The notes beneath the pieces were generated by a model. The model saw only the letters and a list, made by a program, of their open reading frames with translations. It was not told where the DNA came from and did not search any database. Shown here piece by piece: positions 6,125 through 46,682 of a stretch of DNA of 64,000 nt. The number at the start of each line of letters is the position of its first letter. Position 1 is the first letter of the stretch. Position numbers and translations under genes: made by a program. Source of the stretch: Bacteroidota bacterium (GTDB taxonomy: Bacteria > Bacteroidota > Ignavibacteria > UBA10030 > SZUA-254); NCBI GenBank assembly GCA_036522515.1, contig DATDFQ010000055.1:1-64000 (forward strand), given 5' to 3'.

Positions 6125-6243
6125 GGTAGTGTCTCAGTTTCACCCAACATGTCATCCTGAGGGAGCGCAGCGACCGAAGGATCTCGTCTTTCCGACCTGC
6201 AAGATCCTTCGCTTCGCTCAGGATGACAAAATAAGACACTACC
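6125..6243. repeat. 119-bp inverted-repeat element (copy 1)
   Basis: A palindromic element whose inner arms are GTCATCCTGAGGGAGCG and CGCTTCGCTCAGGATGAC. Its ends form a perfect 10-bp terminal inverted repeat, GGTAGTGTCT (6125-6134) and AGACACTACC (6234-6243). A copy of the same length lies at 12306-12424, differing at about 15 of 119 positions by hand count. It has no coding capacity and resembles a MITE. It sits 64 bases upstream of the histidine kinase start, in the promoter region. Confidence 0.8.
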
Positions 6244-12305: not shown

Positions 12306-12424
12306 GGCAATGTCTCAATTTCACCGAATATGTCATCCTGAGGGAGCGTAGCGACCGAAGGATCTCGTCTTTCCGATCTATGAGATCCTTCGCTCCGCTC
12401 AGGATGACAAAATGAGGTAGTACC
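12306..12424. repeat. 119-bp inverted-repeat element (copy 2)
   Basis: Second copy of the element at 6125-6243, same length and orientation. The core arms are GTCATCCTGAGGGAGCG and CGCTCCGCTCAGGATGAC. Its outer ends have decayed (GGCAATGTCT and GAGGTAGTACC). Like copy 1 it lies shortly upstream of a minus-strand gene, here the sugar-binding protein. Confidence 0.8.
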
Positions 12425-15797: not shown

Positions 15798-15923
15798 GTA
15801 CGCCGATTCGAACCATTTTGTCATCCTGAGCGAAGCGAAGGATCCCGGCGCTTGTCGGGTGGAGATCCTTCGCTGCACTCCGTTCCGCTCAGGATGACAT
15901 GTTGTTTGAAACCGAGCCGGTAC
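15798..15923. repeat. Inverted-repeat element reaching into the TonB receptor gene
   Basis: Inner arms TTTGTCATCCTGAGCG and CGCTCAGGATGACA belong to the same family as 6125-6243. Outside them the flanks are still complementary (GTACGCCGATTCGAACCA at the left, TTGAAACCGAGCCGGTAC at the right), so the element ends at the two GTAC tetramers. The right arm therefore covers the first ten codons of the receptor gene. Confidence 0.65.
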
Positions 15924-22934: not shown

Positions 22935-25340
22935 TTGAACCGCTTCAAGACGAGATTCGGGTCATTTTCGCCCGATGGAACAGAGTACATCATTTCAACG
23001 CCCCGGACTCCCCGCCCCTGGATCAACGTCATCAGCAACGGAGATTACGGGATGACGTTCTCCCAGGCGGGAAGCGGGTATAGCTGGCGGACACACGCCC
23101 AGCTCAACAGGATTACGCGCTGGGAACAGGACCTGGTCAGGGACGACTGGGGGAAACACATCTATTTGCGGGACGAGAAGAGCAATATCTGGTCGGCCGG
23201 GTGGAAACCGGTCTGCGCCGAACCGGAGTCCTATCGCTGCCGGCACGGGTTCGGTTATTCCGCGATCGAATCTCTCCATGATGGCATCGGGACGGAGCTG
23301 CTCGTCTTTGTTCCGATGGAAGAGCCACTCGAGATTTGGCGCCTGACGGTCACGAACCGCTCCCGAAGGGCGCGTTCCCTCTCCGTTTTCACATACCTGG
23401 AATGGGGCCTCGGCCAGGCCCCCGACTGGCACCGGGAATTCCACAAATCCTTCATCGAAACGGAGTACGACCCCCGATCGCGGGCAGTCTATGCGACGAA
23501 GCGGCTCTGGGAGGTCCCCACCCCCCGCGGCCACTGGAACACTCCATGGCCCTATGTGGCCTTTCATTCCTCCAACCTCAAACCCACGTCGTTCGACACC
23601 GATAAAGAAACCTTCCTCGGGATGTACGGCTCGACGGCCTCGCCCGAGAGCGTTCAAAGAAACAGGCTGCGGAAGAGCGCGGGGAAAGGCCTCGACCCGG
23701 TCGCGAGCCTTCATTCCGGAATCGCCCTCAAACCGGGCGAATCGAAAACGCTTCTTTACACTCTCGGCGCCGCGGATTCCCGATCGCAGGCCGAAGGGCT
23801 CATTCTCAAGTATAAGGATCCCGGGGAGGTGGAGGCGGCGTTGGAGGAAGTGCACCGGCGCTGGTCGGGTCTTCTCAACGGCGCAGTCGCGGAGACGCCC
23901 GACCGTGCGATGGACCTGATGCAGAACGGATGGCTAAAGTACCAGGCGATCTCGGGACGAATCTGGGGGCGCACCGCGTACTATCAAACCGGAGGCGCCT
24001 TCGGGTTCCGCGATCAATTGCAGGACAGTCTCCTCTGGCTGGCGATCGATCCGGCGCGGACACTCGATCAGATCCGGCTCCACGCGAGGCACCAGTTCAG
24101 AGAGGGAACCGTCTATCATTGGTGGCATCCTCTCACCGAGCTGGGGTTGCGGAATCAGATTTCAGACAACCTGCTCTGGCTCCCCTACGCGATGAACCGC
24201 TATCTGCTGGAGACGAACGACTTCTCAACACTCGATCTCCGGGAACCCTGGGTCGATGACAGCCAGGGAGCGTCCCTCTACGATCATTGCGTGCTGGCGA
24301 TCGACTTCGCTCTTACCCGCTTCAGTCCGAGAGGCCTTCCCCTCATCGGTAGCGGCGACTGGAACGACGGTCTCAGCGCGGTCGGTCTCGAAATGAAAGG
24401 GGAATCGATCTGGCTGGGCCAGTTTCTCCACCGGATCCTGATCGAATTTGCTGCGGTTTCAGAGCGCCGGGGAGACACCGGGCGATCGAAACGGTATTGC
24501 TCCCGGGCGGATGAATTGCGAGCGAACCTGAACAGGCTCGGGTGGGACGGCGATTACTACTACGGCGCCACGAAGGACTCGGGCGACAAGCTCGGAAGCA
24601 GCGTCAATACCGAAGGGGCGATCTGGCTCAACCCCCAGACATGGGCGATCATCGGCGGTGTCGCGGATGAGGGCAGGGCTCAACAGTGCATGGACATCGT
24701 TGAACAGAAGCTGGAAGCGGAGATCGGCCCGCTCTTGTTGAAACCGGCATACAAAACACCCGACGAATATATAGGTTATCTGACGCGCTATAGTCCGGGG
24801 ATGCGCGAGAACGGAGGAGTCTATACGCACGCCGCGACCTGGGCGGTTATCGCCGCGGCGATGCTGGGCCGCGGAGAAACCGCGTTTCGGATCTACTCCA
24901 AGCTCAATCCGGTGAACCGCGGGAAGGATCCCGGCAGGTACTGCGCCGAACCGTATGTGACAGCCGGAAACATCGAAGGGCCCGATTCCCCGTTCTACGG
25001 AAGGGGGGGCTGGACATGGTACACCGGCTCGGCGGCGTGGCTCTTCAACGCAGGCTTCGAATGGATTCTCGGCATACGCCCGGCGTTCGGCGGGTTGTTG
25101 TGCGATCCGTGCATTCCACGGAGCTGGAAGGGGTTCGCCGTTCGCCGGAACTTCCGGGGAGCCCAGTACAACATCGTCGTGGAAAACCCCCGCCATGTCG
25201 AGTGCGGGGTGAATGAGATGTGGGTCGACGGAGAGCTGCAGCGCGGGGGCGCAAGCCCGAGATCGAACACAGCGCCGCTCTTTCCGGCGGGCACGACGCA
25301 CAATATTCGTGTCGTGATGGGAAGCGGACTGTCATCCTGA
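22935..25340 (+). CDS. GH94 family oligosaccharide phosphorylase
   Basis: Cytoplasmic phosphorylase of 801 aa (no signal peptide) that cleaves a beta-linked disaccharide or oligosaccharide with phosphate to give a sugar 1-phosphate. N-terminal beta-sandwich (IISTPRTPRPWINVISNGDY, RITRWEQDL, ESYRCRHGFGYSAI), (alpha/alpha)6 barrel (GFRDQLQDSLLW, YHWWHPLTELGLRN) and C-terminal beta domain (GIRPAFGGLLCDPCIP). The catalytic acid is D475 in GSGDWNDGL. Length and architecture match cellobiose or chitobiose phosphorylase rather than the longer 1,2-beta-oligoglucan phosphorylases, so the linkage is open. The stop codon lies inside a repeat whose first bases encode the last residues (LSS), so the original C-terminus may have been slightly different. 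Confidence 0.92.
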   Translation: MNRFKTRFGSFSPDGTEYIISTPRTPRPWINVISNGDYGMTFSQAGSGYSWRTHAQLNRITRWEQDLVRDDWGKHIYLRDEKSNIWSAGWKPVCAEPESYRCRHGFGYSAIESLHDGIGTELLVFVPMEEPLEIWRLTVTNRSRRARSLSVFTYLEWGLGQAPDWHREFHKSFIETEYDPRSRAVYATKRLWEVPTPRGHWNTPWPYVAFHSSNLKPTSFDTDKETFLGMYGSTASPESVQRNRLRKSAGKGLDPVASLHSGIALKPGESKTLLYTLGAADSRSQAEGLILKYKDPGEVEAALEEVHRRWSGLLNGAVAETPDRAMDLMQNGWLKYQAISGRIWGRTAYYQTGGAFGFRDQLQDSLLWLAIDPARTLDQIRLHARHQFREGTVYHWWHPLTELGLRNQISDNLLWLPYAMNRYLLETNDFSTLDLREPWVDDSQGASLYDHCVLAIDFALTRFSPRGLPLIGSGDWNDGLSAVGLEMKGESIWLGQFLHRILIEFAAVSERRGDTGRSKRYCSRADELRANLNRLGWDGDYYYGATKDSGDKLGSSVNTEGAIWLNPQTWAIIGGVADEGRAQQCMDIVEQKLEAEIGPLLLKPAYKTPDEYIGYLTRYSPGMRENGGVYTHAATWAVIAAAMLGRGETAFRIYSKLNPVNRGKDPGRYCAEPYVTAGNIEGPDSPFYGRGGWTWYTGSAAWLFNAGFEWILGIRPAFGGLLCDPCIPRSWKGFAVRRNFRGAQYNIVVENPRHVECGVNEMWVDGELQRGGASPRSNTAPLFPAGTTHNIRVVMGSGLSS

Positions 25341-25421
25341 GGGAGCAAGGCGACCGAAGGATCTCACTATGACCAATCATCGAAAAGCCGGATTCTTCGT
25401 CGCTTCGCTCCTCAGAATGAC
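25331..25421. repeat. Inverted-repeat element joining two glycosidase genes
   Basis: Left arm GTCATCCTGAGGGAGC and right arm GCTCCTCAGAATGACG, same family as the 119-bp elements. It contains the TGA stop of the GH94 gene (25338-25340), an AAGGA Shine-Dalgarno (25357-25361) and the ATG of the next gene (25369), plus that gene's first 17-18 codons. Confidence 0.75.
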
Positions 25422-26988
25422 GCTCATCGCACTGACGCTCGGGGCGTCCGGAGATCCCCTCACTGCACAGGTTACGGACGATCAGCTGCTCGACACACTC
25501 CAGCATTCCGCGTTCAGTTTCTTCTGGCAGGAAGCCAACCCTTCGAACGGATTGATCAAAGACCGGAGCGCATCCGGAGCTCCGTGCAGCATCGCCTCTG
25601 TCGGGTTTGGCCTGACCGCGATCTGCATCGGCGCCGACCATGGGTGGGTGACGCGCGAAGCGGCGCGCGACCGGGTACTGGCCGCTCTCCGGACATTCTG
25701 GACAGGCCCCCAGGGAACCGCACCATCCGGCACGACCGGCTACAAAGGGTTTTTCTATCATTTTCTCGACATGAACACGGGCGTCCGGACCTGGAACAGC
25801 GAGCTCTCGACGATCGACAGCGGGCTGCTTCTCGCCGGGATTCTCCATACGAGGGAATACTTCAACGGGAGCGACTCCGGAGAAGTGCAGATCCGCTCGC
25901 TCGCCGACTCGATTTACCGCCGCGCAGACTGGGAGTGGTTCAGAAATTTCAACGCGGGTATCCTGATGGGATGGAACCCGGGGACTGGGTTTGCCGGGTA
26001 CGGACAATGGACCGGCTACAACGAAGCGATGATCATGTACATTCTCGGATATGGTTCCCCAACGCACCCGGTCGCAGACCAGCTCGGATGGCAACAATGG
26101 ACCAGCGGATACCAGTGGCAGACGCAGTACGGCTATACGTACGTCATCTTCCCGCCGCTCTTCGGGCATCAGTACTCGCACTGCTGGATCGACTTCGGCG
26201 GCATCGCGGATTCATATATGCGTAACAAAGGGATCGACTATTTTGAGAACTCCCGCCGGGCGACGCTCGCACAACGCGCCTACTGTGCGGCAAATCCGGG
26301 AGGGTGGGCGGGCTACAGCGACACGCTCTGGGGAATCACCGCGTCGGACGACACCGGGAACACCTACAGCGCCCGGGGCGCCCCGCCCGCGCAGAACGAC
26401 GACGGGACGCTGGTTCCCACGGCGCCCATCAGCTCCCTTCCGTTCGCGCCCGAAGAAGTGATCCCCGTGATTCGCAATCTGTGGAACAATTATCGCGGCC
26501 AGCTCTGGACGCCGTACGGATTCCGGGACGCGTTCAACCTGACAGCCAACTGGTGGGGTCCGGACATCATCGGCATCGACCAGGGGCCGATCATCATCAT
26601 GATAGAAAATTACCGGACCGGCGGAGTCTGGAACCGGTTCATGCAGAACGCGGACATCCAGCGCGGACTCGCGCGCATCGGCTTTCAGCCCTTCGCGGGT
26701 GTCGAGGACCGGTCGCTCGCGCCCGCCTCGTTCGAACTCTTTCAGAATTATCCCAATCCCTTTAACGGTTCGACCGTGATCCGGTATTCGCTGCCCTCTT
26801 CCGGCTCCGTCACTCTGAAGATTTTTGACCTTCTCGGCCGTGAAATTCGCACGCTCGTCAACGGAGAGGAATCGATCGGAGTCCACGCTGTAACGTTCAG
26901 CGCGGATCCTCTCTCCTCCGGTGTCTACCGGTACCGGCTCGTCTCCCGCGGCCGGGTCGCCGTCAAACAGTTCATCCTTCTCAAGTGA
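25369..26988 (+). CDS. GH144-type glucanase with T9SS sorting domain
   Basis: Secreted glycosidase of 539 aa of the glycoamylase-like family (PF10091, CAZy GH144, whose characterised members are beta-1,2-glucanases). After a signal peptide, the (alpha/alpha)6 domain shows FSFFWQEANPSNGLIKDRS, GYKGFFYHFLDMNTGVR, ELSTIDSGLLLAG, GYNEAMIMYILGYGSPTHP (likely acidic catalytic region), FGHQYSHCWIDF and ENSRRATLAQRAY. The C-terminus is a type IX sorting domain (ELFQNYPNPFNGSTVIRY ... SGVYRYRL ... KQFILLK), so it acts outside or on the cell surface. The ATG at 25369 has AAGGA seven bases upstream; ATG 25417 is an alternative. Both lie in the repeat. Its neighbour is a second GH144 gene. Confidence 0.9.
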   Translation: MTNHRKAGFFVASLLRMTLIALTLGASGDPLTAQVTDDQLLDTLQHSAFSFFWQEANPSNGLIKDRSASGAPCSIASVGFGLTAICIGADHGWVTREAARDRVLAALRTFWTGPQGTAPSGTTGYKGFFYHFLDMNTGVRTWNSELSTIDSGLLLAGILHTREYFNGSDSGEVQIRSLADSIYRRADWEWFRNFNAGILMGWNPGTGFAGYGQWTGYNEAMIMYILGYGSPTHPVADQLGWQQWTSGYQWQTQYGYTYVIFPPLFGHQYSHCWIDFGGIADSYMRNKGIDYFENSRRATLAQRAYCAANPGGWAGYSDTLWGITASDDTGNTYSARGAPPAQNDDGTLVPTAPISSLPFAPEEVIPVIRNLWNNYRGQLWTPYGFRDAFNLTANWWGPDIIGIDQGPIIIMIENYRTGGVWNRFMQNADIQRGLARIGFQPFAGVEDRSLAPASFELFQNYPNPFNGSTVIRYSLPSSGSVTLKIFDLLGREIRTLVNGEESIGVHAVTFSADPLSSGVYRYRLVSRGRVAVKQFILLK

Positions 26989-46614: not shown

Positions 46615-46682
46615 CCATTTGTCATTCTGAGGAGCGTAGCGACGAAGAATCTCTGAGATCCTTCGCTTCGCTCAGGACGGGA
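46615..46682. repeat. Degenerate copy of the GTCATCCTGAG inverted repeat
   Basis: TTTGTCATTCTGAGGAGCG on the left and CGCTTCGCTCAGGACGG on the right, with GAATCTC/GAGATCC in the middle. It is a shorter, decayed relative of 6125-6243, positioned just upstream of a minus-strand kinase gene, as the full copies are upstream of other minus-strand genes. With the two elements that follow it fills the 449-base gap 46587-47035, which contains no gene. Confidence 0.65.

Follow-up and report, generated by a model that had tools for sequence, protein, structure and literature searches.

The described repeats closest to the one at this locus are those of the CGTC-tagged REP superfamily (Di Nocera et al., 2013; PMC3733652). 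As set out in the accessible part of that paper, they carry a CGTC tag (often TGTC or CCTC) at one end, a stem of 8-9 bp that starts with AT, a loop of 4-5 nt and an unpaired 3-nt tail that is mostly CCA. Most of them form head-to-head heterodimers in which the spacer is short; they overlap gene ends, and no dedicated transposase flanks them. In the same text, the termini of GTAG REPs often give a TAG stop to the flanking ORFs, and many REPs at N-terminal ends are considered possibly extragenic, the start codons having been wrongly called. That TAG belongs to the tag, whereas at the present locus the stop is a TGA located in the stem. Fusions of repeats to ORFs are also on record: in enterobacteria, the RU-1 and RU-2 MITEs contribute residues to a signal peptide (YPO1552) or take the place of the normal stop (ECA3499) (Delihas, 2007; PMC2759123, PMC2229807), which is what the element described here appears to do. 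As far as the accessible text describes them, these MITEs are longer, and each forms one gene end rather than lying at the junction of two genes. The Rickettsia palindromic elements RPE-4 and RPE-6, which are CGTC repeats in PMC3733652, are likewise palindromic and add residues to proteins, but the available part of that paper describes them as inserts within ORFs. In a non-exhaustive search of partly accessible literature, we found no single repeat that holds the stop of one gene together with the only start of the next. The element at this junction, which by its reading frames would do both, is one more neat case of what repeats of this sort are already known to do.

There is a 93-bp head-to-head dimer of the REP type at 25330-25422 of the window (the whole 64,000-nt stretch of DNA that was analysed), between a GH94 and a GH144 gene; the limits given in the earlier note, 25331-25421, are one base short on each side. 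The label GH144 is also that note's, and it was PF10091 (Glycoamylase) alone that was tested in this analysis. The two genes belong to a run on the plus strand that encodes a TonB-dependent receptor, a PorV-like protein, GH94, two PF10091 enzymes, GH43, GH2 and GH3. The features of the junction are given in Table 1. A search for direct and inverted repeats in the 1.2 kb around the junction found no repeat because the two arms match imperfectly, and a pattern search was used for the arms in its place. There were no Rfam matches above the gathering score across the whole window. Further copies of the family lie in the window at 6150-6228, 12331-12409 and 46620-46653.

Table 1. Features of the GH94-GH144 junction (positions in the window)
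Feature	Coordinates	Strand	Basis or remark
GH94-type glycoside phosphorylase gene	22935..25340	+	Pfam PF17167, PF06165; final codons reach into the repeat
Left arm of the dimer, a long REP arm of the 29-nt class with a TGTC tag and the stem ATCCT...AGGAT	25330..25365	+	Sequence and arm comparison
TGA, GH94 stop, within the left arm	25338..25340	+	Sequence
AAGGA, invariant in the arm (GAAGGATC); possible, unproven Shine-Dalgarno site	25357..25361	+	
Spacer (loop) separating the two arms, 23 nt	25366..25388	+	
ATG in the spacer, most likely start of the GH144-type gene	25369..25371	+	
GH144-type secreted enzyme with Por secretion tail	25369..26988	+	Pfam PF10091; first 18 residues repeat-coded
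Right arm of the dimer, a long REP arm of the 27-nt class with a CGTC tag and the stem ATTCT...AGAAT	25389..25422	-	Arm comparison
Second in-frame ATG, outer end of the right arm; sole other candidate start before residue 62	25417..25419	+	

The GH94 frame ends GGA CTG TCA TCC TGA. The repeat makes up the last three codons and two bases of CTG, so that the terminal SS of the protein is repeat-coded along with two bases of its L codon. On the other side, the first 18 residues of GH144, MTNHRKAGFFVASLLRMT, are encoded by the repeat and the 18th codon ends exactly at its right end. After the upstream in-frame stop (ending at 25317), the in-frame ATG, GTG and TTG codons are ATG 25369, ATG 25417, TTG 25552 (residue 62), 25648 and so on. 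Both ATG codons lie inside the element and TTG 25552 lies inside the region that is matched in relatives. If the product is secreted, the start of the gene must therefore be expected within the repeat. ATG 25369 gives a basic n-region (MTNHRK) and ATG 25417 an 18-residue leader without one; ATG 25369 is the better guess. The earlier note had claimed that the inverted repeat holds the TGA, the AAGGA and the ATG at 25369, that it supplies the stop of one gene and the translation start of the next, and that it encodes the N-terminal part of the signal peptide. All three motifs read as claimed, and at the level of the reading frames the other two statements hold as well, since the stop, every available start and the first 18 residues fall within the element.

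An element that holds the start of a gene may also have broken it. The insertion might have removed the real start and signal peptide of GH144, leaving a young pseudogene, and the arginine (R16) amid the hydrophobic stretch of the leader, together with the young look of the element, would fit such damage. We consider it unlikely, because the ORF is intact over 539 codons, its codon use is native (score 89), the PF10091 domain and the Por tail are present, and an in-frame ATG is directly available.

Of 150 relatives, 147 have a match in the protein search. Besides the window's own, 29 loci were fetched; GH94 lies just upstream in 23 of them, and the 6 without a GH94 hit in the flank were dropped. 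The arm motif is absent from all 23 of these junctions. A relative that lacks the repeat and yet has the same LSS end and signal peptide would have spoken against the repeat as their source; neither an LSS C-terminus of GH94 nor any 5-mer of the repeat-coded peptide was found at the 23 junctions. Two of the relatives have a GH94 that ends in VKSS or RTSA without a repeat, and a short tail of serines would therefore say little on its own. The GH94 proteins of the relatives run for 0 to 6 variable residues past a conserved glycine. The protein encoded downstream shows no conservation of its leader before about residue 30. Listed mechanically, which is not proof of use, the downstream gene has its first in-frame start at -4 to +17 nt relative to the GH94 stop in 18 of the 23 relatives, and a tight junction looks like the usual state. 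The same-genus match to GH144 is 71% identical and its homology starts at residue 19-20, where the repeat ends. As homology begins at this point and neither the GH94 tail nor the leader is conserved, it appears that the element replaced parts that were free to vary. Since no relative that has the junction is closer than 71% identity, the ancestral junction is not directly seen.

The arm pattern of the repeat family, CATYCTGAG-N(6-22)-GAAGRATC, has 314 matches in the 3.5-Mb genome; the reversed pattern, used as a control, has none. A sample of 158 distinct elements, covering 252 of the 314 arms, was analysed in detail (beyond contig 24 the elements were chosen mainly by long arms, and four near sequence ends were skipped). 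The tag is TGTC in 242 of the 252 arms, CGTC in 4 and another sequence in 6, as in the CGTC-tagged superfamily as far as its description was accessible; with TGTC or CGTC in 246 of 252, these arms do not carry the GTAG tag of RAYT-mobilised REPs. Two arms are present in 94 of the 158 elements, and 92 of these 94 are inverted with the tags outside, which is the head-to-head arrangement reported for CGTC-tagged REPs. The stem ATYCT/AGRAT is found in every arm, although the search pattern fixed those bases.

The family differs from the CGTC-tagged REPs, as the accessible text describes them, in its tail and its arm. The tail is mostly CTC or CTT (68 and 17 of 100 arms; CCC 7, CTG 6, CTA 2) and in none of the 100 is it CCA. 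The arm is also longer, with a 5-bp outer stem, a GA/GA internal loop and a second, self-complementary core. Every arm is able to form a hairpin by itself. The left arm in the window folds as ATCCT (5 bp), a GA/GA 2x2 loop, GG/CC, GA/GA, GC/GC and a 3-nt loop, and thus lacks the described 8-9 bp stem with a loop of 4-5 nt. Among 49 arms of relatives, picked by hand, the core between the fixed ends is Watson-Crick paired at 188 of 300 symmetric positions (1000 shuffles gave a mean of 76.5 and at most 97). Additional G.A pairs in the cores are not above chance (59, shuffled mean 57.3), so we claim core self-complementarity only. No report of this family was found in the literature, parts of which were searched by sequence string and by words.

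The amplification of the family is patchy among relatives: at least one match to the arm pattern is present in 75 of 150, with 206 in G115 and 110 in G031, and there is none in the same-genus genome G001 (79% complete). A RAYT was considered as the mover and is not favoured. The genome has only one weak Y1_Tnp match (E 1.2e-4), and in relatives the number of arms does not simply track Y1_Tnp (110 arms and no match in G031, 206 arms and 5 matches in G115).

In the junction element, the left arm has the sequence of its commonest type apart from the loop triplet, and the core of the right arm is identical to the commonest core of its type, which suggests that the element is young. The pairing of the arms is unusual: 91 of the 92 inverted dimers consist of a short (21-nt) arm and a longer one, and the dimer in the window is the only long plus long pair (29 + 27). 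This structural oddity hints at how the element arose. One possibility is that separate elements after GH94 and before GH144 recombined, so that the old junction was lost and a hybrid was left, its left half from one element and its right half from the other. Such a deletion, which concerns origin and is compatible with the account that we favour below, would explain the unique pairing and the absence of the ancestral stop, spacer and start. Two adjacent single-arm insertions fit equally well, as does a hybrid made elsewhere and then moved, and no intermediate was seen; we therefore put the deletion forward tentatively, as somewhat less probable than its alternatives.

The RNA of the junction element is predicted to fold with its arms paired at -45.6 kcal/mol (z -4.9; none of 200 shuffles was as good). 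There are 30 inter-arm pairs, the most in the 92 inverted dimers. Exceptional hairpin strength was considered as a distinguishing feature and rejected, the energy ranking only 32nd of 92. The earlier note took the AAGGA for a ribosome-binding site. The motif is there, 7 nt before ATG 25369, but its position is no evidence that such a site was recruited because it is an invariant part of every GAAGGATC arm. Additionally, the Shine-Dalgarno signal at starts in this genome is weak at best: SD-like 4-mers precede an unambiguous ATG in 10 of 31 genes, and controls shifted upstream give 5, 6, 7, 7 and 2. An ATG 0-6 nt after GAAGRATC occurs in 17 pattern hits, 9 of them with an arm, out of 314 arms, and we do not read this as an excess.

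The computed energies point instead to the ribosome that terminates at the end of GH94. In free RNA, 14.2 kcal/mol is needed to open the start region (25355-25375). The cost falls to 5.5 kcal/mol if 25323-25355 is cleared by a ribosome on the GH94 stop, but still stands at 7.9 kcal/mol if the footprint is smaller (+11). On these models, translational coupling to GH94 would be more likely for GH144 than use of a Shine-Dalgarno site. In the accessible parts of two published studies, Bacteroidetes hardly use Shine-Dalgarno sequences for either kind of initiation (PMC6728339, PMC6847099), and the opening of a structured start region by upstream translation is a described route (PMC6728339).

Gene ends in the sampled elements were called with a home-made codon-use gene finder, trained on the window and taking first start codons. 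The stop of a predicted gene lies in 8 of the 158 elements, and 4 of these 8 (window, L117, L254, L277) give an ..SS ending by the same TCA TCC TGA reading. In L117 (1537-1564), an aspartokinase-like amino-acid-kinase/ACT protein ends in ALSS by repeat reading, as GH94 does. Fifteen predicted ORFs leave an element with their start inside it, most of them with another start soon downstream of the element. The element at 25330-25422 is the only one of 158 that holds both a stop and a start. With 7 stops and 14 starts among the other 157, about 0.6 double cases would be expected by independent chance; a stricter expectation, from the 3 starts with no other start within 30 codons downstream, is about 0.1. 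One double case is near this coincidence rate and is no evidence for selection. No gene in the sample reads through an element; four apparent cases of elements inside genes looked like over-extended ORFs and were left uncounted.

The earlier note had further proposed that the element was domesticated as a gene junction, selection keeping it as a translational switch made of stop, hairpin, ribosome-binding site, start and signal-peptide n-region. The reading frame, the spacing of the AAGGA from the ATG and the energetics of coupling fit this, and there are two other genes, for a Sir2 protein (L106) and an epimerase (L107), both near 1500, in which the AAGGA of an arm lies 8 and 5 nt before an ATG and the domains begin soon after. 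Against this, the AAGGA is fixed in the arm anyway, the 9 of 17 ATG-near hits are not an excess, the Shine-Dalgarno signal is weak and the single double case is close to chance. Selection for a junction role is thus unsupported, there being no sign of it, and with arms that look this young we hold domestication to be improbable. Read inward, the arms do offer a TGA and, read outward, ATGA, and one of their frames encodes the hydrophobic stretch GFFVASLLRMT. It is conceivable that the family is a standing donor of gene ends, whose insertions supply stops, starts and n-regions of signal peptides near genes for secreted proteins, and that the long plus long hybrid at this junction is a ready-made coupling hairpin, but we think this doubtful.

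Taken together, the data probably reflect the arrival of a young element that was tolerated. A head-to-head heterodimer of a recently amplified, patchy family would have come to a tight GH94-GH144 junction within a run of glycan-use genes. Either insertion or deletion between repeats would have put it in place of a short non-conserved stretch, namely the variable end residues of GH94, a short spacer and the GH144 start codon with the n-region of its signal peptide. It may have been tolerated because these stretches were free to vary and because it offers a TGA in the incoming frame and an ATG in the spacer, with a frame that is open through the right arm. More tentatively, a ribosome ending GH94 at 25338-25340 may clear the lower stem and free the start region in the loop. 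Against this reading, GH94 and GH144 may be transcribed or translated separately, and starts in repeats are often calling artefacts, although for GH144 there is otherwise none before residue 62.

Nothing yet shows that the element is useful to the cell. Its value lies in the example itself, a clean one from nature that was compared with 23 relatives: a single 93-bp repeat holds the end of a gene together with the sole usable start of the gene that follows. Were the junction expressed as read, it would allow a test of whether coupling survives when an operon junction is replaced by a hairpin repeat. The case also calls for caution in annotation, as most other starts inside the repeat have another one close downstream and may be wrong calls.

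Finally, there are arms at the 5' ends of other genes. The gene for the TonB-dependent receptor in the same run has another dimer of the family at its 5' end (15819-15899); the outer ATG of this dimer (15894) would start MTCCLKPSRYRAFVTVLFFLSLSFTFAFA, which is signal-peptide-like by eye, with TTG 15906 and ATG 15792 as alternatives. The outer ATG of an arm is also a plausible start of a secreted protein in L267 and in L068 (370-1503, minus strand), where the protein is a DUF5700 peptidase that would begin MTTNRSVAVSFLIGLAVCASHVPLLSQ.
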